Shown: positions 5,490-60,930 of the stretch, piece by piece | Layout of the letters: each line of letters opens with the position of its first letter | Position numbering within the stretch: the stretch's first letter is position 1 | NCBI GenBank assembly: GCA_944474755.1 | Contig: OX104115.1 | Span: forward strand, 65,764,605-65,828,604 | From: Limnoperna fortunei | Taxonomy: Eukaryota; Mollusca; Bivalvia; Mytilida; Modiolidae | Length of the DNA stretch: 64,000 bases | Direction of reading: 5' to 3' | The notes under the pieces: model-generated | Databases searched by the model: none | Seen by the model: only the letters and a program-made list of their open reading frames with translations | Told to the model about the DNA's origin: nothing | Made by a program: the position numbers and the translations under genes

Positions 5490-6110
5490 TGTCCTCTGTA
5501 ACTATGCATGGTAGGATGAAAATATTTGGTGTATAGGTTGCTGATGACTAGTACATGACTGTCTGGTAGGTGTCACTTGACCTTGACCTCAATTTCACGG
5601 TCCAGCCACTACGTTAAAGTTTTTGGGTTACAACAGTTCCTCTGTAACTACGCGTGGTAGGATGAAAATATTTGGTGTATAGGTTGCTGATGACTAGTAC
5701 ATGACTGTCTGGTAGGTGTCACCTGACCTTGACCTCAATTTCACGGTCCAGCGACTACGTTAAAGTTTTGGGGTTACGACAGTTCCTCTGTAACTACGCA
5801 TGGTAGGATGACAATATTTGGTGTATAGGTTGCTGATGACTAGTACATGACTGTCTGGTAGGTGTCACCTGACCTTGACCTCAATTTAACGGTCTAGCGA
5901 CTAGGTTAAAGTTTTTGGGTTACGATAGTTCCTCTGTAACTACGCATGGTAGGATGACAATATTTGGTATATAGGTTGCTGATGAATAGTACAAGACTGT
6001 CTGGTAGGTTCCACCTGACCTTGACCTCAATTTCACGGTCCAGCGACTACGTTAAAGTTTTTGGGTTACGGCTGTTCCCCTGTAACTATGCAGGGTATGG
6101 TGACAATATT
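5490..6110 (+). repeat. 146-bp tandem repeat array (about four copies)
   Basis: The motif cctctgtaacta recurs at exactly 146-bp spacing (5495, 5641, 5787, 5933, 6079), and tgaccttgacctcaa recurs at 5578, 5724, 5870 and 6016. Units differ by only a few bases. The same 146-bp unit forms a five-copy array at 60110-60790, and both arrays run into the same downstream block of about 100 bp. The reverse strand of each unit has the direct repeat AGGTCAAGGTCA. Confidence 0.92.
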
Positions 6111-6117
6111 TTGTATA

Positions 6118-6226
6118 CAGGCTGCTGCTGATATTTAATGCTATTTACGTAATGCTTATGACGAAATTTATTTTCGTTACTGATGCGGAATGCAGGCGAG
6201 ATGTTTTTCTGTGTCCACACTTGTGT
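6118..6226 (+). mobile_element. terminal block shared with the repeat at 60830-60930
   Basis: The block from gctgctgatatttaatgcta through gatgcggaatgcaggcgaga to gtgtccacacttgt also occurs, almost unchanged, downstream of the 146-bp array in the kinesin intron. It is probably the end of one transposon family, with the 146-bp units as its variable interior. Confidence 0.75.
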
Positions 6227-7100: not shown

Positions 7101-7173
7101 CACACCAATGTCCACTCATTCACCTTTTGCTATCCCACCAATGACCACCAGTCAACCAGTCATCATCACAGTG

Positions 7174-9374
7174 GTCAGACCACCAATGTCCACCCCTCCA
7201 CTATGGGCAGCCAACCAATGTCCACCCCTCCACTATGGGCAGCCCACCAATGTCCACCCCTCCACTATGGACAGCCCACCAATGTCCACCCCTCCACTAT
7301 AAGCAGACCACCAATGTCCACCCCTCCACTATGGGCAGCCCACCAATGTCCACCCCTCCACTATGGGCAGACCACCAATGTCCACCCCTCCACTTTAGAC
7401 AGCCCACCAATGTCCACCCCTCCACTATGGGCAGCCCACCAATGTCCACCCCTCCACTATGGGCAGACCACCAATGTCCACCCCTCCACTTTAGACAGCC
7501 CACCAATGTCCACCCCTCCACTATGGGCAGCCCACCAATGTCCACCCCTCCACTATGGGCAGGTCACCAATGTCCACCCCTCCACTTTAGACAGACCACC
7601 AATGTCCACCCCTCCACTGGGCAGCCCACCAATGTCCACCCCTCCACTATGGGCAGCCCACCAATGTCCACCCCTCCACTATAGGCAGCCCACCAATGTC
7701 CACCCCTCCATTATAGGCAGCCCACCAATGTCCACCCCTCCACTATGGGCAGACCACCAATGTCCACCCCTCCACTATTGGCAGCCCACCAATGTCCACC
7801 CCTCCACTATGGACAGCCCACCAATGTCCACTCCTCCACTATGGACAGCCCACCAATGTCCACCCCTCCACTATGGGCAGACCACCAATGTCCACCCCTC
7901 CACTATAGGCAGCCCACCAATGTCCACCCCTCCACTATGGGCAGCCCACCATGTCCACCCCTCCACTATGGGCAGGCCACCAATGTCCACCCCTCCACTA
8001 TGGGCAGCCCACCAATGTCCACCCCTCCACTATGGGCAGGCCACCAATGTCCACCCCTCCACTATAGGCAGCCCACCAATGTCCACCCCTCCACTATGGG
8101 CAGCCCACCAATGTCCACCCCTCAACCCCTCCACTATGGGCAGCCCACAAATGTCCACCCCTCCACTATAGGCAGCCCACCAATGTCCACCCCTCCACTA
8201 TGGGCATGCCACCAATGTCCACCCCTCCACTATAGGCAGCCCACCAATGTCCACCCCTCCACTATGGGCAACCCACCAATGTCCACCCCTCCACTATGGG
8301 CAGCCCACCAATGTCCACCCCTCCACTATAGGCAGACCACCAATGTCCACCCCTCCACTATAGGCAGCCCACCAATGTCCACCCCTCCACTATGGGCAGA
8401 CCACCAATGTCCACCCCTCCACTTTAGGCAGCCCACCAATTTCCACCCCTCCACTATAGGCAGCCCACCAATGTCCACCCCTCCACTATAGGCAGCCCAC
8501 CAATGTCCACCCCTCCACTATAGGCAGCCCACCAATGTCCACCCCTCCACTATGGGCAGACCACCAATGTCCACCCCTCCACTATAGGCAGCCCACCAAT
8601 TTCCACCCCTCCACTATAGGCAGCCCACCAATGTCCACCCCTCCACTATGGGCAGCCCACCAATGTCCACCCCTCCACTATAGGCAGCCCACCAATGTCC
8701 ACCCCTCCACTATGGGCAGCCCACCAATGTCCACCCCTCCACTATGGGCAGCCCACCAATGTCCACCCCTCCACTATAGGCAGCCCACCAATGTCAACCC
8801 CTCCACTATGGGCAGCCCACCAATGTCCACCCCTCCACTATAGGCAGCCCACCAATGTCCACCCCTCCACTATGGGCAGACCACCAGTGTCCACCCCTCC
8901 ACTATGGGCAGCCCACCAATGTCCACCCCTCCACTATGGGCCGCCCACCAATGTCCACCCCTCCACTATGGGCCGCCCACCAATGTCCACCCCTCCACTA
9001 TGGGCAGCCCACCAATGTCCACCCCTCCACTATGGGCAGCCCACCAATGTCCACCCCTCCACTATGGGCAGACCACCAATGTCCACCCCTCCACTATAGG
9101 CAGCTTATCAATGTCCACCCCTCCACTATGGGCAGACCACCAATGTCCACCCCTCCACTATAGGCAGCCCACCAATGTCCACCTCTCCACTATGGGCAAC
9201 CCACCAATGTCCACCCCTCCACTATAGGCAGCCCACCAATGTCCACCCCTCCACTTTAGGCAGACCACCAATGTCCACCCCTCCACTATAGGCAGCTTAT
9301 CAATGTCCACCCCTCCACTATGGGCAGACCACCAATGTCCACCCCTCCACTATAGGCAGCTTATCAATGTCCAC
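7174..9374 (+). repeat. 32-bp minisatellite, about 69 copies
   Basis: A 32-bp unit with core ccaccaatgtccacccctcc followed by actat(g/a)ggcag repeats for 2.2 kb. It is GC-rich within an AT-rich intron. Variants recur in patterns: actatggg, actatagg and actttagg, cagccc or cagacc, and a cagcttatc variant at 9101, 9293 and 9357 (spaced 192 and 64 bp, whole multiples of 32). A few units carry indels, near 7615, 7950 and 8120. Since 32 is not a multiple of 3, the array gives apparently long reading frames in all forward frames, broken only where tatagg or tttag adds a stop. These frames are not genes. The array sits inside intron 1 of the NIPA-like gene, 476 bp upstream of exon 2. Confidence 0.98.
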
Positions 9375-9849
9375 CGCTTCTTCATTGATCTTTGTAAAAG
9401 TTGCCCTGAACATAAATAATTGGGACTTTTAAATGTTTATACTTATCAATATTGTAAGGCAAAAGTTCAATCCAGAAGGTGTGAAAGTTTAACAAGTCCT
9501 CCATCCACACACACACACATGTGCTCACTTTCACTGATGATAGGTGGAAAAAGCAAACTCCTGTGTAATTCATCTGTTAAAAACAACATTGTAGCTTACT
9601 TCAGTAACCAAATAGTTACTGGTTTTCTAAAACTGAATTGAATTGTGGGTAATTTGAATGTTTATCTTACCACAATGCAAAATACATTGTGTCTTTGGTT
9701 AGAAACTTTCAGTTGTTGAATAAAACATTCAACACCTTTTACTGTTTGACATTTTAAAAGTAATGATGCAACTGTGCATTGTTTTAAACCAGTCAAATGA
9801 CCACTGATTATTGTTCGAATTAGCTATTTGAAATTTTATTTATTTTCAG

Positions 9850-37357: not shown

Positions 37358-37783
37358 CAACTCCATCCAGTCGTTGTGCTTCAATTGAAGTGTTTTAATC
37401 ATTGTCACATTGATGCTTTTAAAGGAATTTTTCAGTGATGTAATGTCCAACTTCTTCTCTGAAGAAATTTCTAATCTTCGTAAATTTTGTAAGTCACAGA
37501 AAGCGTCCGAACTAAAACTGTGAATTGAATTATTGATTAAAATTAAATCTGTCAGCACATTGGTTGATACGTTCTTAAAACTGTATCTTGTTATGTTTGG
37601 TAAAACATTGTGTATAAGTTTTAAGACTTCAACGTATTTTGGAATTTTCGGTATATATGTCAAATAACTGCAGGTCGCATTTTTCTGGATAAATTTGCAA
37701 TTATCTTTCCTCTTTACCATCTCAGAAATCACTAAACTTTGAAACACTAGAAGAAAAGACAGAATCCAAATATTTTTATCCAT
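37358..37783 (-). pseudogene. Toll-like receptor pseudogene, 5' part (signal peptide, LRR N-terminal region)
   Basis: Starts with ATG at 37783. The first 20 residues (MDKNIWILSFLLVFQSLVIS) are a signal peptide. A cysteine-containing N-terminal region (CKFIQKNATC) and the first leucine-rich repeats follow (LTDLILINNSIHSFSSDAF, LQNLRRLEIS, IKTLQLKHNDWMELP). The frame is intact up to the CCGG at the insertion edge, where it reads into transposon sequence and stops after VSY. With the two downstream parts the receptor would be about 690 residues, a normal size for a TLR with one cysteine cluster. The three parts together argue for a single intronless ancestral gene. Confidence 0.9.
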
Positions 37784-37974
37784 TGTAAATGAAGCAATGA
37801 ATAGCGAAACTCGAAATCGTGGAAAACGCGTCTATCACAGACTACAGAAAGATAACGAGTCAGCTCTTATAACATAAACGAATTTCAACTTAAGGAAATT
37901 ATAATTAAGACAACGCATTATATTGAAGTACATGTGAAAGTAATTATGTCCTTTTTCCGTTTTTAGAACTCAAT

Positions 37975-38102: not shown

Positions 38103-38438
38103 TAATGGACGGGTCAATTTTAATTGGGGTTGGGACCGGTGCATTTCAAAATTATCAGGTTTAAAAAAGCTGTGTCATATCTCTTTAAAATACAATAAAA
38201 GTTGCTGTCTTCCATCAGATGTGTGATACAAAAGTTGGTGTCCTATCCTGTGAATAATTTATTGGTTACAATTTAGTAATTATGGTTGTGGAACAATGGC
38301 ATTCACCTTCCTAAATTTGCTTTCAGTGTTCCGAGTACTTTTATCAGTTATTATTCGGAACTCCTCGGACAACATCGTTTCATTTCCCGTACTAACAAAG
38401 TTTTTTTAAATCCTGTAAAACTTTCAAAAATCTACAAA

Positions 38439-38637
38439 ATGCCGCAATATTGTTGCGTGCCGGGTTGCACCAACTTCGGGGGACATCTTTTCCCTGAGCA
38501 GAAAGATTTAAATTTGAGGTGGAGGGTCGCCATTAAGAGAAGAGACCCGAAAACGAAAGGCCTATGGAAGCCAGGAAAATATGATGTTGTGTGTTCCTTG
38601 CATTTTAAAGACACCGATTTTAGAGTTACAAAGTCAG
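38439..38637 (+). CDS. THAP-domain protein, first coding exon
   Basis: From the ATG at 38439 the frame encodes a THAP zinc-finger domain: MPQYCCVPGCTNFGGHLFPE, then LRWRVAIKRRD, then YDVVCSLHFKDTDF. The C2CH ligands are C5 (or C6), C10, C52 and H55, with the conserved W28, the FP at residues 18-19 and the HF after the last ligand. THAP domains bind DNA and occur both in cellular transcription factors and in P-element and Kolobok-type transposases. The exon ends at a donor (tcag/gttaga at 38637), before the usual AVPTxF-like segment, so at least one more exon is expected. I did not find it. The frame is open upstream to 38286 but nothing there looks like protein. In context it is probably a gene of the 7.5-kb transposon. 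Confidence 0.85.
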
Positions 38638-39150
38638 GTTAGACCATTGCATACAAATTTTATGCAGTATTAAAGTTCAAATTGTTCCTTTCACAAATAG
38701 ATACAGCGTAATCCGACTTCAGGCTATATTTTTTCAGTTGAAAACGTGACCCCCTTTATAAGACATAGCCAGACCTTTTCTAGTTTATGTAGTTGCTTAA
38801 TCAAAGTCCAGCACCTAGTTAGAATAAGATATTAAACCTTCATTTAGCTTAGGGGGACCGTCTACCTAAGGGTGAATTTCAAATGTGCCATACAGTTGTA
38901 CAGGCTGTGTCAAAGTGCCACCTACAATGTATATATTGACTAGCACTGTACATACATGTAGCCTTGTAGGCTGTATCAGTCTTTATCTGAAATCAATGTG
39001 CCGTCCGACATTCTGCCATCAAGTGCCATTGGTTAGTGTACCTTATTAAAGCTTTTAATGTCATGAATGTTAGGGTCCCCTATACTGTACAGGTAATATA
39101 TCTTACTATACATACATATATGTCACACATACATGTAAATATGATAATGT

Positions 39151-39199
39151 AACCCTCAGTCCACTACAATCCTGTGAGGAACATAGTGGACTGAGGGTT
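39151..39199. repeat. perfect 16-bp hairpin
   Basis: aaccctcagtccacta (39151-39166) pairs fully with tagtggactgagggtt (39184-39199) around a 17-base loop. Located inside the 7.5-kb transposon, downstream of the THAP exon. Confidence 0.85.
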
Positions 39200-39319
39200 A
39201 AGTTATCGTATCTTATGTAGGTCAATATTAGCTGCATGTAATACCTTCATGTACAACACTGTATGCAAACATGTGATAAACATGTACATGTAGTTAGAAA
39301 ATATTCTGTTCAGTTTACA

Positions 39320-39473
39320 CAGTGTTCGAAACTAAATTTTTTCTAGTATAGACATTTGCTCCAACTGCAGAAAATTTTCTACATACTCTATATATACTTT
39401 TCAAAATTTGGCATAGACCTGCTTGATTTATCGTAGACAATGTCTATCGGTCTACCACTAATTTCGAACACTG
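39320..39473. mobile_element. 154-bp MITE with CAGTGTTCGAAA ends
   Basis: The left end cagtgttcgaaacta pairs with the right end taatttcgaacactg. It is flanked by tttaca on both sides (39314-39319 and 39474-39479). The size and the CAGTGTT end suggest a hAT-type MITE, but the duplication seen is 6 bp rather than 8. Nested in the 7.5-kb transposon. Confidence 0.7.
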
Positions 39474-40699
39474 TTTACATACATGTGTACATTTTGTACA
39501 TAAAATGATGCTCTAAAATAAGAATTTACATGTACAAGCTAAATGTTCATTGTAGCCCACCTCATAATTTAAAAACCATGGGCAACTGGCCATGAGCCAC
39601 TGCTTGTTTGGACTCCTAGGCCTATTACACTTGAAAATGTCAAAACTACTCTCACAGTGGATGACTGTATAGATTGATTTTTTAATTATGTGTATGCATT
39701 TGTGATTGGAATAATATTAATTTTAAATCAATTGATAATTACTGACTGAGTGATTGTTGTGGTTTTATGCCTTAGCAACATATCTGCAGATATGCATGTA
39801 CATTGTACATGTACTAGCCCCAAAAAATTTTCACATGTCCTGTTTAATGAATAAACTAGTCTTGAGCATTACAATTAATATGCTAGTGGCTAAATGTACA
39901 GACTAATTAAAAATGTGTACACTTGTATTCACTGAATTCAAGCAAATAATTAATAATGCATACTAGTATGTATGTATATTTGGACATATGTTACTGTTGA
40001 AAAAAGGCTTAAACACTGTATGGAAAGTGTCACGGTAACGGTTGTTTGGTATTATTTCCGGTTTTGGTGGATGTGAAGACAACACAACATGTAGGTCACT
40101 TTAAATGCTATTTTCTTAAAAACTTGCAACCTTGATGAATGTCAGTTAGCAAGGTTTTATTAAGGACATAATTTGTGTCAGATACAGAGCTATTTCCAAC
40201 ATAGCATACCAACAGGCTTTTCAAAAATGACAAAAACAATGCAACTTGTTTACATCGTTCCGCATAACTTTTCGACTTCAACGTCAATTTTTCACAATAA
40301 TATCGACATGATTTCATTTCCATATATTGCCCTTTTTTTATTATATTCATTGGCATCATAAATTAACACTTACCTTGCATATATCTTAATATTATTGGCC
40401 AATGGGCCGTTTTAAGCCCACCGGGGTCTGTATCAAGTGTACGTGTTTGGTAACCAAATAATTTTGATCTTGTGTGCGGTTTGGTTTATTAACTATGTAC
40501 GGTTTGGTACTAAATAATATTACATGAAATGCTCTATTCAAAAACCATTAATCACCCGTTAAGTTATGCCCTGTGGTAGCTAATGAAAAAATGTATAATA
40601 TTTATGGAAGGTGCTAATATGTAGGACATCTTCACAATTCTGGAAATAGTAATTAATAGGTAACATGTATATAGCAATATGAAAGGATATATCGATATC

Positions 40700-40894
40700 C
40701 TAATCTTCCTGCTGCAACAAGGCTCCTCTCTGTAGTGTTTTATTTATTTGTTTTCGAAATGAAGGGGGTATCGGAGTTCCTGGCATTTGCAACCATGAAG
40801 GGTCACCGAACTTTGCATGCTGGTACATCTTGGGACGACTGACAATCTCCATAAAACTAGTTCTCCGAGATTCAATTGTAATCCAATTCAACAT
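40700..40894 (-). CDS. candidate terminal exon, unknown protein
   Basis: A 64-codon frame directly behind a good acceptor on the - strand (tataaactcag before ATG at 40894), ending in a stop at 40700. It reads MLNWITIESRRTSFMEIVSR then PKMYQHAKFGDPSWLQMPGT and a basic tail. Its composition looks like protein (W, P, charged residues, no low complexity). It has no family that I recognise. It may be the last exon of the same - strand gene as 41149-41355 or of the SAP gene. The frame joining them cannot be fixed without a transcript. Confidence 0.4.
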   Translation of the reverse strand: MLNWITIESRRTSFMEIVSRPKMYQHAKFGDPSWLQMPGTPIPPSFRKQINKTLQRGALLQQED

Positions 40895-40963
40895 CTGAGT
40901 TTATATGTCTCGGTCATTTGTACTTACTTTGCATAGCAACTATGATATTACGTTGGCATCCAA

Positions 40964-40995
<32 letters not shown>

Positions 40996-41008
40996 ATATG
41001 GCTAACAT

Positions 41009-41515
41009 TGTTACTAAATTGCCAAACTGTCACATTTTGTAATGTACATGAATACCAAAACCAAACCGTACACATTTTGTAGAGTAAAAATTACCAAACC
41101 GTACACAAGAACAAAACCAAACACGTACACTTGATACAGACCCCGGTGTTGATGTGATCTATAACCAAATTTTCCTGTTTCCAAATTCAGTTCTAAACTT
41201 CTAATTTTCAGAGTTTCATTTTGATGCGTTTCTGAACAGTGTTCAATTATTTGTTTGAAATCATCAAATCCATTATGGCAGTAGTAACACAGATATTGAC
41301 TATTTGGGTAAGAAATTTCCATATCAAGTAAAGAAAGATGAAATAGCAGCCATTCCTAGAAAACAAATAAAATAAATTGTTACTAAATTGCCAAACTGTC
41401 ACATTTTGTAATGTACATGAATACCAAAACCAAACCGTACACATTTTGTAGAGTAAAAATTACCAAACCGTACACAAGAACAAAACCAAACACGTACACT
41501 TGATACAGACCCCGA
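41009..41515. repeat. 140-bp direct repeat flanking a zinc-finger-like exon
   Basis: The block starting gttactaaattgccaaactg and ending gatacagaccccg occurs at 41009-41148 and again at 41377-41515. The second copy overlaps the inner end of the right 440-bp arm. The bases between the copies are the exon-like segment 41149-41355 with its acceptor. Confidence 0.88.
41149..41355 (-). CDS. candidate exon with C2H2-like zinc finger
   Basis: On the - strand an acceptor (ttatttgttttctag) precedes an open frame: EWLLFHLSLLDMEISYPNSQ, then YLCYYCHNGFDDFKQIIEHC, then SETHQNETLKI and KFGYRSHQH. C-x2-C-x(12)-H-x(4)-H spacing (CYYC...EHCSETH) resembles one C2H2 finger. The frame then runs into the 140-bp repeat without an obvious donor. 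It is either a gene fragment captured by the foldback element or part of the transposon's own - strand gene. The start methionine is not determined. Confidence 0.45.
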
Positions 41516-41924
41516 TGGGCTTAAAACGGCCCATTGGCCAATAATATTAAGATATATGCAAGGTAAGTGTTAATTTATGATGCCAATGAATATAATAAAA
41601 AAAGGGCAATATATGGAAATGAAATCATGTCGATATTATTGTGAAAAATTGACGTTGAAGTCGAAAAGTTATGCGGAACGATGTAAACAAGTTGCATTGT
41701 TTTTGTCATTTTTGAAAAGCCTGTTGGTATGCTATGTTGGAAATAGCTCTGTATCTGACACAAATTATGTCCTTAATAAAACCTTGCTAACTGACATTCA
41801 TCAAGGTTGCAAGTTTTTAAGAAAATAGCATTTAAAGTGACCTACATGTTGTGTTGTCTTCACATCCACCAAAACCGGAAATAATACCAAACAACCGTTA
41901 CCGTGACACTTTCCATACAGTGTT

Positions 41925-44900
41925 AAAAGGACAACAAACAATCAGAGATTGAATACATTACCATGATTTCTGACAGTGATTAAAAGATATAGGGTGGGCT
42001 TTTTGAGGACAAAAAATTAGGGTAGGTACATGTAGTATAGGGAAGCAGGAAACAAAGATATACATTTTATTTTGGCCTTATGTGTTTTTTTTTCAAAATT
42101 TTATAAATTAATACATGTAATAGTGATTTTAACAAAATTACAGAACATAATTTTGGCCTAAAACCAGAAAAAAAACCACATTTGTCGTTTGTACATGTAC
42201 AGGAAAATTTATAAAAAAAGGGGTTCAAACAAAACTACCGAACTGGCATTTTTTCTAAAATCAGCATTTCTGTGATATGATTTTAATCTGAAAACAACCA
42301 GAAAGGATACATGCAATACCAGTTTCTAGTTATCTGATTGCTTAGTATTCAGATGGCAACATACATCTATTTTGAAAAGAAATACCAAAAAATATTAAAT
42401 TAATATGTTCTCCCTATGCCCATATAATGCATACCATTATGCTATGTCTCTCCCATGGTGACACATGTACATGTAAGACCTAAAATAAATAATTGTTTGT
42501 TTTCCATACCCTACCCTATGAAAGGTTGGTAGGTAGGTAAAATATTTTATCCTGACAAGGTATCATTTCCAATAAACTTGACTCATTTACTTCATTGGAG
42601 CACAATTCCATGGATTTTGATTAGCCCCCCCCCCCCCCAAAAAAAAAAATTCTTCACAAAACAACAATATAATTTTTCACATTGAAGTGATTTTTTGGGG
42701 GTAGGTCGGATTGGGGAAACAAACATTTTTTTTAATTTTTTGCCTAATTGAAATATTTTCTTTTTTAATTCAAAGAGACCAAAGTGTTTTCAAATCTAGG
42801 TTCTGTAACCATTAAAATGCATAAGCATTGACAGTCTGTGCCATTAGCCCTATGCTCTTAGCTAGTGAAATTTGGTGGGGGCTTGTGAAAATTAATATAG
42901 ACAAATAGACATGATAGAAGACAATTTCAAAATTGGCTTTTCGGGCTAGTAGACAAAAAAGTTTTTGGCACAGACTGCATTGAATTTCACATCTTCTAAA
43001 AATGTCTAGGAAGAACATTAAATTATGAATACTTACATACATAAACCACAACATTGAAGAACCATGCACTCAACTGGCAAACACCAACATCAACATTAAC
43101 ATGAAGAACATTAAATTGCCACAAACAAAGGCAGCACCAGATGTGAAAATTTTATTTCTCGACATGCTAGCACTTCCCTCAGTTGTAACAAAATCAACAA
43201 AAATCAACATTCCAATCAAGTAACTGAAAAATAAAACTAGGAATGCATTTGCAGTCTTCCATGGAAGACTTATGTTGCTTATTTACATCTTTTGTAGAAA
43301 AAAAGAAACCGAAAAAAAAATTAAAGTTTCACTTAAAAATATTAGTTTTGAATATTTTATAATTTTTTTTTACTTGTTTCCACTCTATTCGGCCTATCGG
43401 GGTATTGAGGGAAATCCTACCTTATGTTATAGGAGTAATTCTCAGCTGGGACTAGTATAACTAACGGGATTGGACACTCGCTAAGTCTTCAGCTAAGGAA
43501 GTACGATTTCTTTGTCGCGACGAGACCTGAACGAGATTAAGCGAGAACGCAGAAGTGACATAGACGAATGTAATACGATACCAACATTTTAGTTAAATTT
43601 GTTGCCAATTTTCTGTGACAGTAAATATGTTGTATTTTTTTAGAATTGTGTGTGTCTTATTTACCTAATTGTATTACCATGACCATGTTTTATCAATTAA
43701 AAAATATTAAAATCTGCGAAAATCGTGAGCCACTTTTACCGGTCGCCATTTTGGTATGTCATTTTGGCGAACTTTATATTTTATGACCATGTATTATCAT
43801 AATGCAATATTACACATTTAAAAGGTATAGACCAACCAATTAGGTTTTTTGTGTCGTGCTGCAGCATATAGTTTTTTGTTGTGATTCCCCGTATATTTTC
43901 GGATTAGGTAGCGTGAAATATTTGCAGGTTTTTGGAAAGTCGACGCAGATTTTTAAACGGTCCCCTTGAATACAACCAATATACTTCTGTATTATGAAAG
44001 CAGTATTCATTTTTCTGTCATATTCTGACAGATAAATGTTTTAAGATTGTAAACAGATAGGTCATAATTGAGGACATGAAAAATCACTTTACGTTTAACA
44101 AAAACTTACTTACAGTTCATGGTTGTCCATTATTAAAAAACATCTCAGAGTCTGTTCATTTTGTGTTATGCTTGTGATTGGTAATAAGCATAACAGAAAA
44201 ACTTGTATACACAAACATACATTGGGGGATTAATATCAGCAGTTACAAATTACCTTTTTTATACAAATAATAATTAATTTAATTTCTCTTGATCTTGGGA
44301 ACTCTGATTAAAATGGGCAATTTTAGCAAATTTATTTAAGTTAGTAGTTACTCTAAGTTGTAATTAATTAATACTACAAACGCAATTTTCAAATTTTAAT
44401 TAATATTTATTTCAACCCATTCTCTTAATGTTGTGCCCACCTGTTCGTTATGTAATCACAGGTGTGATGAACAAATGGTTCAATAAACAACGATGTCATA
44501 AGGTGTAAATCCCTAGGTAGCTAATACCCATGTCATCATATTATTTGTCTAATTGGTTAAAGCCATAAAAATCTGGCACTAGTTTAACTGGTATAAGTTG
44601 ATTTATAGGTTCCTGTAAACATCAAAGAAAAAAAAAATACAAAACAGTTTCGATTTTAACTCACTTGGACTAGTTCCTATAATTTTATAATTCATAAAAT
44701 CTGCAATGTGTTTTTCTTTGTTTTTTTCTTTTTTAATTATCTTTCATTAAATACCCAAATTTATTAATATATAAACATAGTGCCGGTAACCAGAGTCTTA
44801 AACAGACATCTTATTGGCGTCTTTCGAAAGCCGAAAACACGATCATATCCGTGTCGACACTTGTTCGGTAATTAAGTATTGGTGCGACAATGAAAAGTAG

Positions 44901-45211
44901 ACGATATCGTTAGATTCCAGTCCCGTTGATTTATAGGTTCCTGTTCTCAGCGGCACCCCCATATATTAGGTGTGGCCCCCGAGGTAGAATCCCATATAAA
45001 GTGTTTAGTAGGAACATTAAACTCCCCTTTAAAAGTAAATATCACATTAATGCCTAATTATTGTTTGACAGGCAACTGGTAAACATGGGGGAAAATGTGC
45101 TAAAATCGTGGAATATTTGCTAATTTCAAAGGTGGAAAGATAGGTCTGTTTATAGCCGACAGGGAGGAAATTCACTATTCTGTCAATATCTTTTCAAAAA
45201 GTTATATCAAC
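41925..45211. other. interior of the 7.5-kb transposon, no exon recognised
   Basis: AT-rich with C/A runs near 42626-42650. Further exons of the THAP and SAP genes are expected in this stretch and in 38638-40011, but I found no frame that I can support. Confidence 0.4.
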
Positions 45212-45312
45212 CTTTCAATTAAATCAGCTTTTCGTCCAGCTGTTGATGCATTTCTTGACGACAATTCTATTTTTAATTTGCCCACTGTCCATTGTCGATA
45301 GTCTTCCGCCAT
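45212..45312 (-). CDS. SAP-domain protein, first coding exon
   Basis: From ATG at 45312 on the - strand the exon reads MAEDYRQWTVGKLKIELSSR then NASTAGRKADLIER and stops at a donor (gaaag/gttgat, exon end 45212). WTVGKLKIELSSR followed by GRKADLIER is a complete SAP helix-turn-helix (about residues 8-33), a motif that binds scaffold-type, AT-rich DNA. The exon holds 33 codons plus two bases, so a phase-2 exon must follow to the left. SAP domains occur at the N-terminus of many large transposon-like proteins in molluscs and cnidarians. That link is from memory and not tested here. It faces the THAP gene. Confidence 0.7.
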
Positions 45313-45635
45313 TTTCCCTATGTAAAAAGACGACGAGTTCCGCAGGAGTATTCCGAATAATAACTGATATTTTTTTGATGCGTCCAACGACCGACGTGAA
45401 AGGTGAAATCCATTGTGCAATTACATTATATTTGTTTGAATTCAAACGTCAGAAATTATTTTGGTTTTTTGCATTGATGATATTGTAATGAAAAACAAAC
45501 TTGCTGTCCTATCAGTGCTGAAAATAACAAAACTTGGAGTACCATATTTATGCCAACATAAAAAAGTGTGTGTTCTTTTGCAATTTGCACCTACTACCCC
45601 AATAAATATTGACCGGTCACGACCCGGTCCCTAAT

Positions 45636-57630: not shown

Positions 57631-60600
57631 TCGCCTGCATCGAAAGTCGCTGGAGGCGAGACATACAGAGGGAACAACGTGTTTTTTATAAAAAACACTA
57701 ACCCACCATGGAAGTTAATCCTTTCCTCTATCACCCACCATGGTATATCCACGCCTACTATCGTGGTTAAGAATCTTCTCAGGTAATCTTACCACGGTGG
57801 ATGCATATGAGGGAGTTCAGTCTACCATGGCATGTCGCCACAGGGGTCCGTCCACGATATCTCCGCGGTGGTACATGTCAGACAACATAAACGTTGTCAT
57901 TTAATTGATTGCGGATTTAAACATCGTTGCCCGAATGAAAAGAGAACATTTTTAAACATTGCTTAAGAATAATTTGCACATGCATTTTATTTGTTGCTCT
58001 TCAATAATGATTAAATGTGCCGGTAGACTTGAAGATCGAATATTTGTTCAACCGGATGCATGTGTTATGCATTAAATATACCCTGAACAAGTTCGGTAAA
58101 TTATCCGGATATGAATTGTCACATTACGTTTTTTTAGTGTATTACAACGTACAGCGAATTGTCCTGAAGTTGTACGCGAACTCTCTTCAATCAATTATAA
58201 ATCCTTTTCGACAGAAAACAGACAGTTGAGCAGCGATCTTTTTCTTTATTTGGTATTTAAAGCCAGAGTTGTTTTAACAAACGCGGACAAAAGTTTACAT
58301 CACGTAACGTTATATAAAATTCGTTAACAGAATGGGATACAACAAATAAATTACTAAAATGAAGCCAACATGCAGCAAGAATAATAAATATGTGAAAAGT
58401 TTATAAACGAGAATCGCCACATACAATATAGTTTAACTACAATATGGTACAGGCGCCTGTTTCAAAAGGTTGAATGAAGTCTTACGTACGCACAATTCTA
58501 AATACACATTTACCTTGGACAATGGCGTTTTAAACTATAACAATTAATATAACAGGTTTATATAAAAAAGTAGTGATGTGCTTCTGAGCTAGATATACCC
58601 TACGCAAAACTGACAATTTTTCAAATGGAATCAGACGTGTTATTTGTATAAAGTTCCCGTTAAAATTAACTCGCAGTTCGGTGTTTTTGCACCACATAGA
58701 ATTTATTGGGATGAATGTTCTCCAGTTCAGAACCCTTTAAGACTTGCCTTAGTTCTCTATATACAAATACTAATTCTTAAAATATTTTGTTGTATTGTGG
58801 TACATTGATTAAACAATAACATATGCATAGTTACTTACGTTTGTTATAACATTAACAAAACAAATCGGAATAAAATTATTTTGAAGACGAAAGAACTGAT
58901 TTGTCCACACTCATATAAATATAAAATAATTGCCAGAATTTACTCAACAGCATGTTTGTTTGTTTTGTTTTGTTCTTTTTTCTTTGTTGGTTTTTTTTTT
59001 TTTTGCGCGCCGATACGAACGTCTGTTTGCGGACATAGGGTCTCGTCGTAATAAAAAAGAAATTATAAGGATGCTACTAAAGTCTTTTCTACAACAAAAG
59101 TTGATGATGTGTCAGGCTTTTAACACTGAAACGACTATTAAGGTTGATTCTATATCACGATTGTATTTTTTTAACACGCGTGGTTTAACGCCGAATACGA
59201 ATCGAGTATAAAATCATTCGTGGAACGATATATTTTGCGACATTACTATTAAGTGATAATTTCGGAAATTTGAAAAATCAAAATGTAGCATTTTAAGCCG
59301 TATTGATTTTAAAGTTTTTAAAACGAATTTCTTTACAAGTCTCGCATTTATTGTGTATTTCTTTACAAGTCTCGTATTTATTGTGAAATGTGCTATTTTA
59401 CCGTTAAAAATGTGAAGCCGCGTGTTCACCTGTTAATTATAAAATTATATAATACACAAGTTTATTGAAATGTTTGAGAGCACGTGCTTGATTAAATGAT
59501 GACAATACTTAGATAATCTATCGAATTAAGGTGTGACACAATTTACACCCGGTAAAAGTTCAAACGGTTGGAACATTAATCAGAGGCGCTGACAGGGAAA
59601 TTTTGACGATAGAATAGCAAAGATTTTGACAATTTTAAGGGCAAAATACGGTGTTCTAACCTTTTAGAACACATTAAGGGAATAATTGTCAATCTAAATC
59701 AGTGACAATAAACTTTGAGGTATTCTCGTATAATGAATAGATTAGCAAGAACGCAGATTAATTTTGTTGTCAAACAAACGTATTAAAACGGCATATTTTA
59801 ACACAAATCTCTAAATTAAATCTAAACATTTTAATTTTTTCTCTGTGTAAGCATGAAAGGAAATTGAAACACGGTGGGTCACGATATGTAGTGGACATAA
59901 CACGATGTACCGCAGAATACCACCGTGGCGTATGGTGGTGAATTTCTAAATGAAAAAACACGACCACAGTATATAGTGGGCAATATAAAAAACACGTCAC
60001 GTCTGTATGTATGGGAAATGGCGGCGGTGGCGTAAACACTTGACATTTTGCTTCATATATTTGTAAGCCCAAGCCCTAGGTCCATCAAATTTGGTACAGA
60101 GGTAGCTTATGATGAGTACTTGCCAGTCACTTGTCACCTGACCTTGACCTCAATTTCACGGTCCAGCGCCTACGTTAAAGTTTTTGGGTTACGGCAGTTC
60201 CTCCATAACTACGCATGGTAGGATGACAATATTTAATGTATAGGTTGCTGATGACTAGTACATGACTGTCTGGTAGGTGTCACCTGACCTTGACCTCAAT
60301 TTTACGGTCCAGCGACTACGTTAAAGTTTTTGGGTTATGACAGTTCCTCTGTAACCACGCATGGAATGATGACAATGTTTGGTATATAGGTTGCTGATGA
60401 CTAGTACATGACTGTCTGGTAGGTGTCACCTGACCTTGACCTCAATTTCACGGTCCAGTGACTATGTTAAAGTTTTTGAGTTACGGCAGTTCCTCTGTAA
60501 CCCCGCATGGTAGGATGACAATATTTGGTATATAGGTTGCTGATGAGTAGTACATGACTGTCTGGTAGCTGTCACCTGACCTTGACCTCAATTTCACGGT

Positions 60601-60930
60601 CCAGCGACTACGTTAAAGTTTTTGAGTTACAACAGTTCCTCTGTAACCACGCATGGTAGGATGACAATATTTGGTATATAGGTTGCTGATGACTAGTACA
60701 TGACTGTCTGGTAGGTGTCACCTGACCTTGACCTCAATTTCACAGTCCAGTGACTACGTTAAAGTTTTTGGGTTACGATAGTTTGTCTGTAACTATGCAT
60801 AGTATGGTGACAATATTTCGTATACAGGCCGCTGCTGATATTTAATGCTATTTACCTAATGCTTATGACGAAATTTATTTTCGTTACTGATGCGGAATGC
60901 AGGCAAGACGTTTTTCTGTGTCCACACTTG
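57631..60930. mobile_element. nested repeat block filling kinesin intron 1
   Basis: The left end has gtctcgcctgcat, which also forms a small hairpin with aggcgagac. The right end has atgcaggcaagac, its inverted partner. Inside, acgtgttttttata (57680-57693) pairs with tataaaaaacacgt (59984-59997), bounding an inner element with scattered ccaccatgg-like motifs near both ends. The right part is the 146-bp array and its terminal block. The interior of the inner element has no recognisable gene. A 31-bp tandem duplication (ttctttacaagtctcg) lies at 59330-59385. Confidence 0.6.
60110..60790 (+). repeat. 146-bp tandem array (five copies)
   Basis: Same unit as 5490-6110. The motif tgaccttgacctcaa starts at 60139, 60285, 60431, 60577 and 60723, a constant 146 bp. 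Units are highly similar. The terminal block gctgctgatatttaatgcta to gtgtccacacttgt follows at 60830-60930, as at the NIPA locus. Confidence 0.93.

Follow-up and report, generated by a model that had tools for sequence, protein, structure and literature searches.

A THAP/SAP-bearing locus of Limnoperna fortunei read as an internally deleted ISL2EU copy nested in a Harbinger-type MITE

Does the genome of the bivalve Limnoperna fortunei hold a DNA transposon of an undescribed kind? The locus that raises this question lies in a 64,000-nucleotide stretch (the window; C5:65764605-65828604 of the 1.335-Gb genome), whose own positions are used below. A sequence-only reading had proposed a single element at 38107-45631, with inverted GGAC(C)GGGTC ends, a 4-bp TAAT duplication and two first exons that face each other, one encoding a THAP and the other a SAP domain, and had matched this layout to no named superfamily. 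Copies elsewhere in the genome lead to a different answer. We consider it close to certain that the locus is an internally deleted copy of ISL2EU, nested in a Harbinger-type miniature inverted-repeat transposable element (MITE) and itself interrupted by two later insertions; the borders that looked new arise because two elements are nested in each other.

The two elements come apart when the leftmost 301 bp of the claimed element are searched against the genome; 40 matches were scored of 614 candidates, so that the counts are lower bounds. One of the 40 is the window itself; 19 match the outer part alone, ending at query positions 171-191 with 83-88% identity, and 20 match the inner part alone, beginning at positions 174-189 with 97-100% identity. 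The left AT duplication of the inner element occupies query positions 190-191. None of the 39 other scored matches spans the junction, and all break near 38296: other copies have other borders, and of the 40 the window alone joins the outer ends to the THAP and SAP genes. Twenty stretches were fetched, covering 7 outer-type and 13 inner-type loci, with L017-L022 counted once as the same loci as L002, L003, L005, L006, L004 and L008.

The outer element consists of a left part at 38106-38297 and a right part at 45414-45631 (both plus strand), measures about 410 bp and shows no gene in either part. Its halves lie side by side in all seven distinct outer-type loci (83-88% identical), where the left part matches to 38289-38297 and the right part from 45412-45455. 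The right-hand match extends to 45618 at most, a point reached in L002, L004, L005, L006 and L008, and to 45586 in L024 and 45528 in L003; the window's own right end reads ...GGTCCC|TAA. Joined without the inner element, the two window halves align to the other copies through ...AACAATTG..., the empty site. The common left end, GGGACNGGTCAATATTA, is exact in three of the seven copies (L002, L003, L005), differs slightly in L006, L008 and L024, and has degraded first bases in L004.

The duplication that flanks the outer element in the window is TAA (38103-38105 and 45632-45634). It looked like TAAT because the window has a T where the other outer copies start with G, as six of the seven other aligned copies do; the supposed 4-bp duplication thus gives way to TAA for the outer element and AT for the inner one. 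TTA or TAA directly precedes the first base in five of the seven other copies, and the same TWA triplet stands on both sides in three of the five that have two ends (TAA in L002, TTA in L006 and L008), while the copies with a left end only have TTA (L003) and TAA (L024). The consulted sections of PMC4482050 give a 3-bp TWA target duplication for PIF/Harbinger elements, and we class the outer element as a putative PIF/Harbinger-type MITE, assigned by its duplication and GGGACNGGTC ends only.

The inner element, at 38298-45411 (no strand), is 7114 bp long with its two nested insertions and about 3.7 kb without them, and it is this element, not the longer interval, that carries the exons for THAP and SAP. 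The GGAC(C)GGGTC ends are those of the outer one. Its terminal inverted repeats start with GG (GGCATTCACCTT / GGATTTCACCTT), and AT is duplicated at 38296-38297 and 45412-45413 in a target A|AT|T. The left end reads AAT|GGCATTCACC, that is AAT|GG, in 13 of 13 inner-type loci, and all nine copies with both ends read AAT|GG...CC|ATT in differing flanks. The right end is truncated in L025, and none was found within the fetched stretch in L010, L013 or L028. Two longer elements on C9, discussed below, have the AT duplication in A|AT|T as well.

The inverted subterminal sequence seen from the start is confirmed as a 19-bp perfect match between 38342-38360 (plus strand, TATCAGTTATTATTCGGAA) and 45351-45369 (minus strand), at 45 bp from the left inner end and 43 bp from the right one. 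The claim that the two first exons begin equally far from the ends holds roughly, once the distances are taken from the inner ends (ATG at +142 and +100). In a divergent relative, C9:81641138-81650335, a similar motif stands 46 bp from one end and 43 bp from the other. Being shared and so placed in an element with a THAP transposase, TATCAGTTATTATTCGGAA is a natural candidate for transposase binding, and it is likely a THAP binding site.

That an insertion did occur at this locus follows from its flanks, which match one unbroken stretch of a neighbouring leucine-rich repeat (LRR) paralogue (window 37509-37855; 74% and 79% identity), with a 3-bp overlap of the two alignments at the junction (coordinates hand-converted). 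The sequence-only reading was right that the insertion splits an LRR fragment resembling a Toll-like receptor gene.

It was also right about the two convergent exons, which have recognisable domains: the open reading frame (ORF) with its ATG at 38439 matches THAP (Pfam PF05485, E 8.3e-10), and the minus-strand ORF with its ATG at 45312 matches SAP (PF02037, E 2.8e-10). We read the first, at 38439-38637 (plus strand; 66 codons plus 1 nt, donor CAG|GTTAG), as the first exon of a transposase gene of the THAP-HTH-DDE type, with exon 2 absent here. The best of its three protein relatives, the 445-aa P0001 of Mytilus edulis (73% identity over the exon), has the domains THAP, HTH_Tnp_4 and DDE_Tnp_4, and in a genome search with P0001 the 12 best of the 99 rows listed start at residue 64-68, precisely where the THAP exon stops. 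In C9:81641138-81650335, exon 1 ends in TCA G|GTAAG and exon 2 starts at ATAG|AT ACT AGG AAA (by eye), and the joined exons give ...SDTRKRLLP, fitting the SRKRLLP of the Mytilus protein. A longer copy of the window's own family, C9:86932106-86951168, has an acceptor TTTAG|GC ACA AGA AAA that gives TRKRLL in phase, followed by a frame change (by eye). The phase of the window exon fits exon 2 of these relatives. The nearest proteins come from Mytilus and oysters; another relative of the THAP exon, P0003 of Ostrea edulis, has a C48 (Ulp1) peptidase in place of the DDE domain.

The second exon, at 45212-45312 (minus strand; donor AAAG|GTTGAT), is read as the SAP-bearing exon 1 of a YqaJ partner gene, of which the later exons are absent in the window. 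Joined to CAG|G TTA AAG in L030, its final GAA AG| gives E-R-L-K in phase (by eye), and the downstream exon there, R-LKAYDRN, is in phase with the window exon.

What the window copy has lost can be seen in the two longer elements. The left end of C9:86932106-86951168 is 98.3% identical to the window over 1719 bp, and both ends are present, flanked by AAT|GG and CC|ATT; the order between them is HTH_Tnp_4 and DDE_Tnp_4, a convergent YqaJ, an exon resembling the SWIM-like one and an exon that continues the SAP exon. The second YqaJ piece in L030 has E 2.5e-9 and one stop inside. The more divergent C9:81641138-81650335 (L032), 9198 bp long and with the same flanks, holds THAP and an open 385-aa HTH-DDE exon; facing them are a SAP exon (65% identical, E 4.3e-9), a SWIM-like exon whose 19.0 bits fall slightly below the curated cut-off of 19.6, and YqaJ (E 1.6e-15). 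At the level of the family, then, THAP, HTH and DDE are found together in L029 (broken) and L032 (open), and YqaJ is found convergent with DDE in L030 and L032; the window copy has the THAP and SAP exons only. The sequence-only reading thus recognised, from two first exons, a real two-gene transposon in which THAP and SAP genes face each other, as in C9:81641138-81650335, but it belongs to a named group. Between the DDE and YqaJ parts of the longer same-family copy, at 5940-6182 of the reverse complement of L029, lies a fragment that by eye resembles a PIF/Harbinger transposase.

The pairing of the two genes extends across the genome. The 99 rows merged to 91 DDE genes (the best 95 of 807 candidates were scored, and the best 150 of 312 for YqaJ), and within 8 kb of these 91 listed P0001-related genes YqaJ is convergent in 50, divergent in 1, on the same strand in 0 and without a match in 40, some of which may have an unlisted YqaJ because only the best candidates were scored. 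When the DDE genes were moved 200 kb either way, 0 of 91 had a YqaJ partner. These counts supersede a hand-picked set of 27 DDE rows (16 convergent, 11 with none).

Apart from its first insertion, the window copy is collinear with C9:86932106-86951168 up to 42148 and then skips the DDE and YqaJ exons. It is a deletion derivative in which the ends, subterminal motifs and two first exons survive and the catalytic exons are gone. The first nested insertion (A) lies at 40014-41922 (no strand) between duplicated TTAAA (or TTAA) at 40009-40013 and 41923-41927, and has 443-bp near-perfect terminal inverted repeats whose arms, 40009-40451 and 41485-41927, differ at two positions; the empty site GGCTTAAAAGG is preserved in L009, L014 and L028. 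It looks like a young element with long terminal inverted repeats. The second (B), at 43447-44943 (no strand), has an 8-bp duplication, TTCTCAGC, at 43439-43446 and 44944-44951 and imperfect inverted ends, and its empty site is seen in L023, L025, L026 and L027. About 1.5 kb long, it might be hAT- or P-like, judged by the length of the duplication alone. At 43278, about 1.1 kb is absent from the window copy that is present in L009, L023, L025, L026 and L027, among others.

Elsewhere in the window, what seems to be one 146-bp tandem unit forms two arrays at opposite ends (5492-6131 and 60132-60828), and a 32-bp unit is repeated about 69 times at 7172-9375. An Rfam search of the window gave no match at the gathering score.

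Could a single undescribed two-gene superfamily, spanning 38107-45631 with a TAAT duplication, still account for the locus? The window does have the inverted GGAC(C)GGGTC ends, with TAAT flanking each, but every one of the other scored copies breaks near the same place, the outer halves adjoin elsewhere without THAP or SAP, the inner element has ends of its own and an AT duplication at nine of nine two-ended sites, and the relatives are ISL2EU by gene content. The genome copies thus lead us to reject this explanation, to which we attach next to no probability. We give equally little credence to the idea that a MITE-like element captured the THAP and SAP exons from host genes in which they came first. 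THAP and SAP domains occur in host proteins as well, a point in favour of capture; both exons, however, lie inside the ends in two-ended copies and in the complete two-gene relative, and the best protein relative of the THAP exon is a THAP-HTH-DDE transposase, and this candidate too is rejected on account of the two-gene copies.

Several observations weigh against an ISL2EU copy nested in a Harbinger-type MITE. With three query proteins, tblastn found no DDE similarity in the window at E <= 0.01, nor any in L001-L028, and for this reason the window copy is assigned to ISL2EU by its ends, its first exons and its longer family member, C9:86932106-86951168. The latter is itself broken: the DDE sequence occupies more than one reading frame, a stop interrupts the YqaJ match, and of the SAP exon only the first bases are matched (window 45287-45312), after which about 2.3 kb of other sequence follows. 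A Pfam search gave no domain for the SWIM-like exon of this copy, and of its two YqaJ pieces, searched separately, the first gave no YqaJ. The link between SAP and YqaJ therefore rests mainly on C9:81641138-81650335, and a protein database search with the SAP exon returned four candidates, none at E <= 0.001. For the outer element, the TWA duplication does not match on the two sides in L004 and L005, two of the five other two-ended copies. Transposition as a whole is read from the sequence.

A further question is whether the first exons do something on their own. Truncated P-element proteins act as repressors, and a family reduced to exon 1 might likewise be functional, with its THAP-only (67 aa) and SAP-only (36 aa) peptides competing with the transposase. 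Both frames stop directly after the exon, the THAP frame just past the unused donor, and both domains are still readable in most copies; of 14 THAP exons, 9 are intact and five are broken by a frameshift (L012, L026), a stop (L016, L028) or an insertion (L011). The substitution record, from which L001 (the window locus) and L007 (a second record of the L016 locus) were excluded, speaks the other way. Across 14 copies the THAP exon has 0.0061 changes per site and its flanks have 0.0076 (upstream) and 0.0061 (downstream), and the distinct changes in the exon are 14 nonsynonymous and 1 synonymous, where neutrality predicts 73% nonsynonymous. Across 11 copies the SAP exon (111 nt counted, from one codon 5' of the ATG to a few bases past the donor) has 0.0107, against 0.0084 and 0.0063 in its flanks, with five nonsynonymous and two synonymous changes. 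These 14 and 11 copies give no indication of purifying selection, although the test is weak because the copies are little diverged. We regard repressor peptides as improbable, and we are scarcely more inclined to believe the wider proposal of a young multi-copy non-autonomous ISL2EU family whose DNA-binding-only THAP and SAP peptides control the transposition of ISL2EU, SAP being a module of the YqaJ partner that had gone unreported.

The nested ISL2EU copy can be placed in a sequence of events. On this reading, a Harbinger-type MITE of about 410 bp inserted at TAA in a copy of the LRR gene fragment; an internally deleted ISL2EU, of the PHIS superfamily, then entered an AATT within the MITE, duplicating AT, and two further elements followed inside it. 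In a complete element of this group, the THAP-HTH-DDE transposase gene runs from the left end towards a SAP-(SWIM-like)-YqaJ exonuclease gene running from the right end. We infer that transposase made elsewhere would bind the subterminal motifs near both ends through its THAP domain and then cut and paste the element into AATT, with whatever role the YqaJ protein may have. The window copy is most likely a non-autonomous passenger mobilised in trans.

What this means is that a claimed new transposon superfamily is removed, and that nested insertion can imitate one when the outer ends and duplication come from one element and the genes from another. In its place the genome yields a complete two-gene ISL2EU whose genes are divided into exons, whose exonuclease partner has a SAP domain and whose subterminal motifs lie at matching distances from the two ends. 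The SAP domain is a small detail that we did not find in print rather than a new kind of element: among the papers searched, none names both YqaJ and a SAP domain, and neither SAP nor a SWIM-like exon is mentioned for the ISL2EU YqaJ protein in the consulted sections of PMC4482050 and PMC9179366.

Among known systems, the P element and Kolobok share with this locus a THAP domain in the transposase, but the gene content of the relatives, the AT duplication and DDE_Tnp_4 fit ISL2EU instead. The outer element resembles PIF/Harbinger MITEs in its TTA/TAA duplication, its ends starting with G, its small size and its apparent lack of a gene. ISL2EU itself is described, in the consulted sections of PMC4482050, as having two ORFs (DDE/HTH/THAP and YqaJ), GG ends and an AT duplication in A|AT|T, and is placed in the PHIS superfamily and reported in animals, with autonomous consensus sequences averaging about 4.8 kb (PMC4482050, PMC9179366, in part). 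Set against this published description only, the inner element is classed as a new ISL2EU family member. It differs in that the window copy is without DDE and YqaJ exons, that the complete relative C9:81641138-81650335 is 9.2 kb long with genes split into exons, and that the YqaJ protein of this relative starts with SAP and has a SWIM-like exon, unlike ISL2EU as described in those sections. What the inner family shares with ISL2EU is its GG ends, its AT duplication in A|AT|T, its THAP, HTH and DDE transposase and its YqaJ exonuclease.

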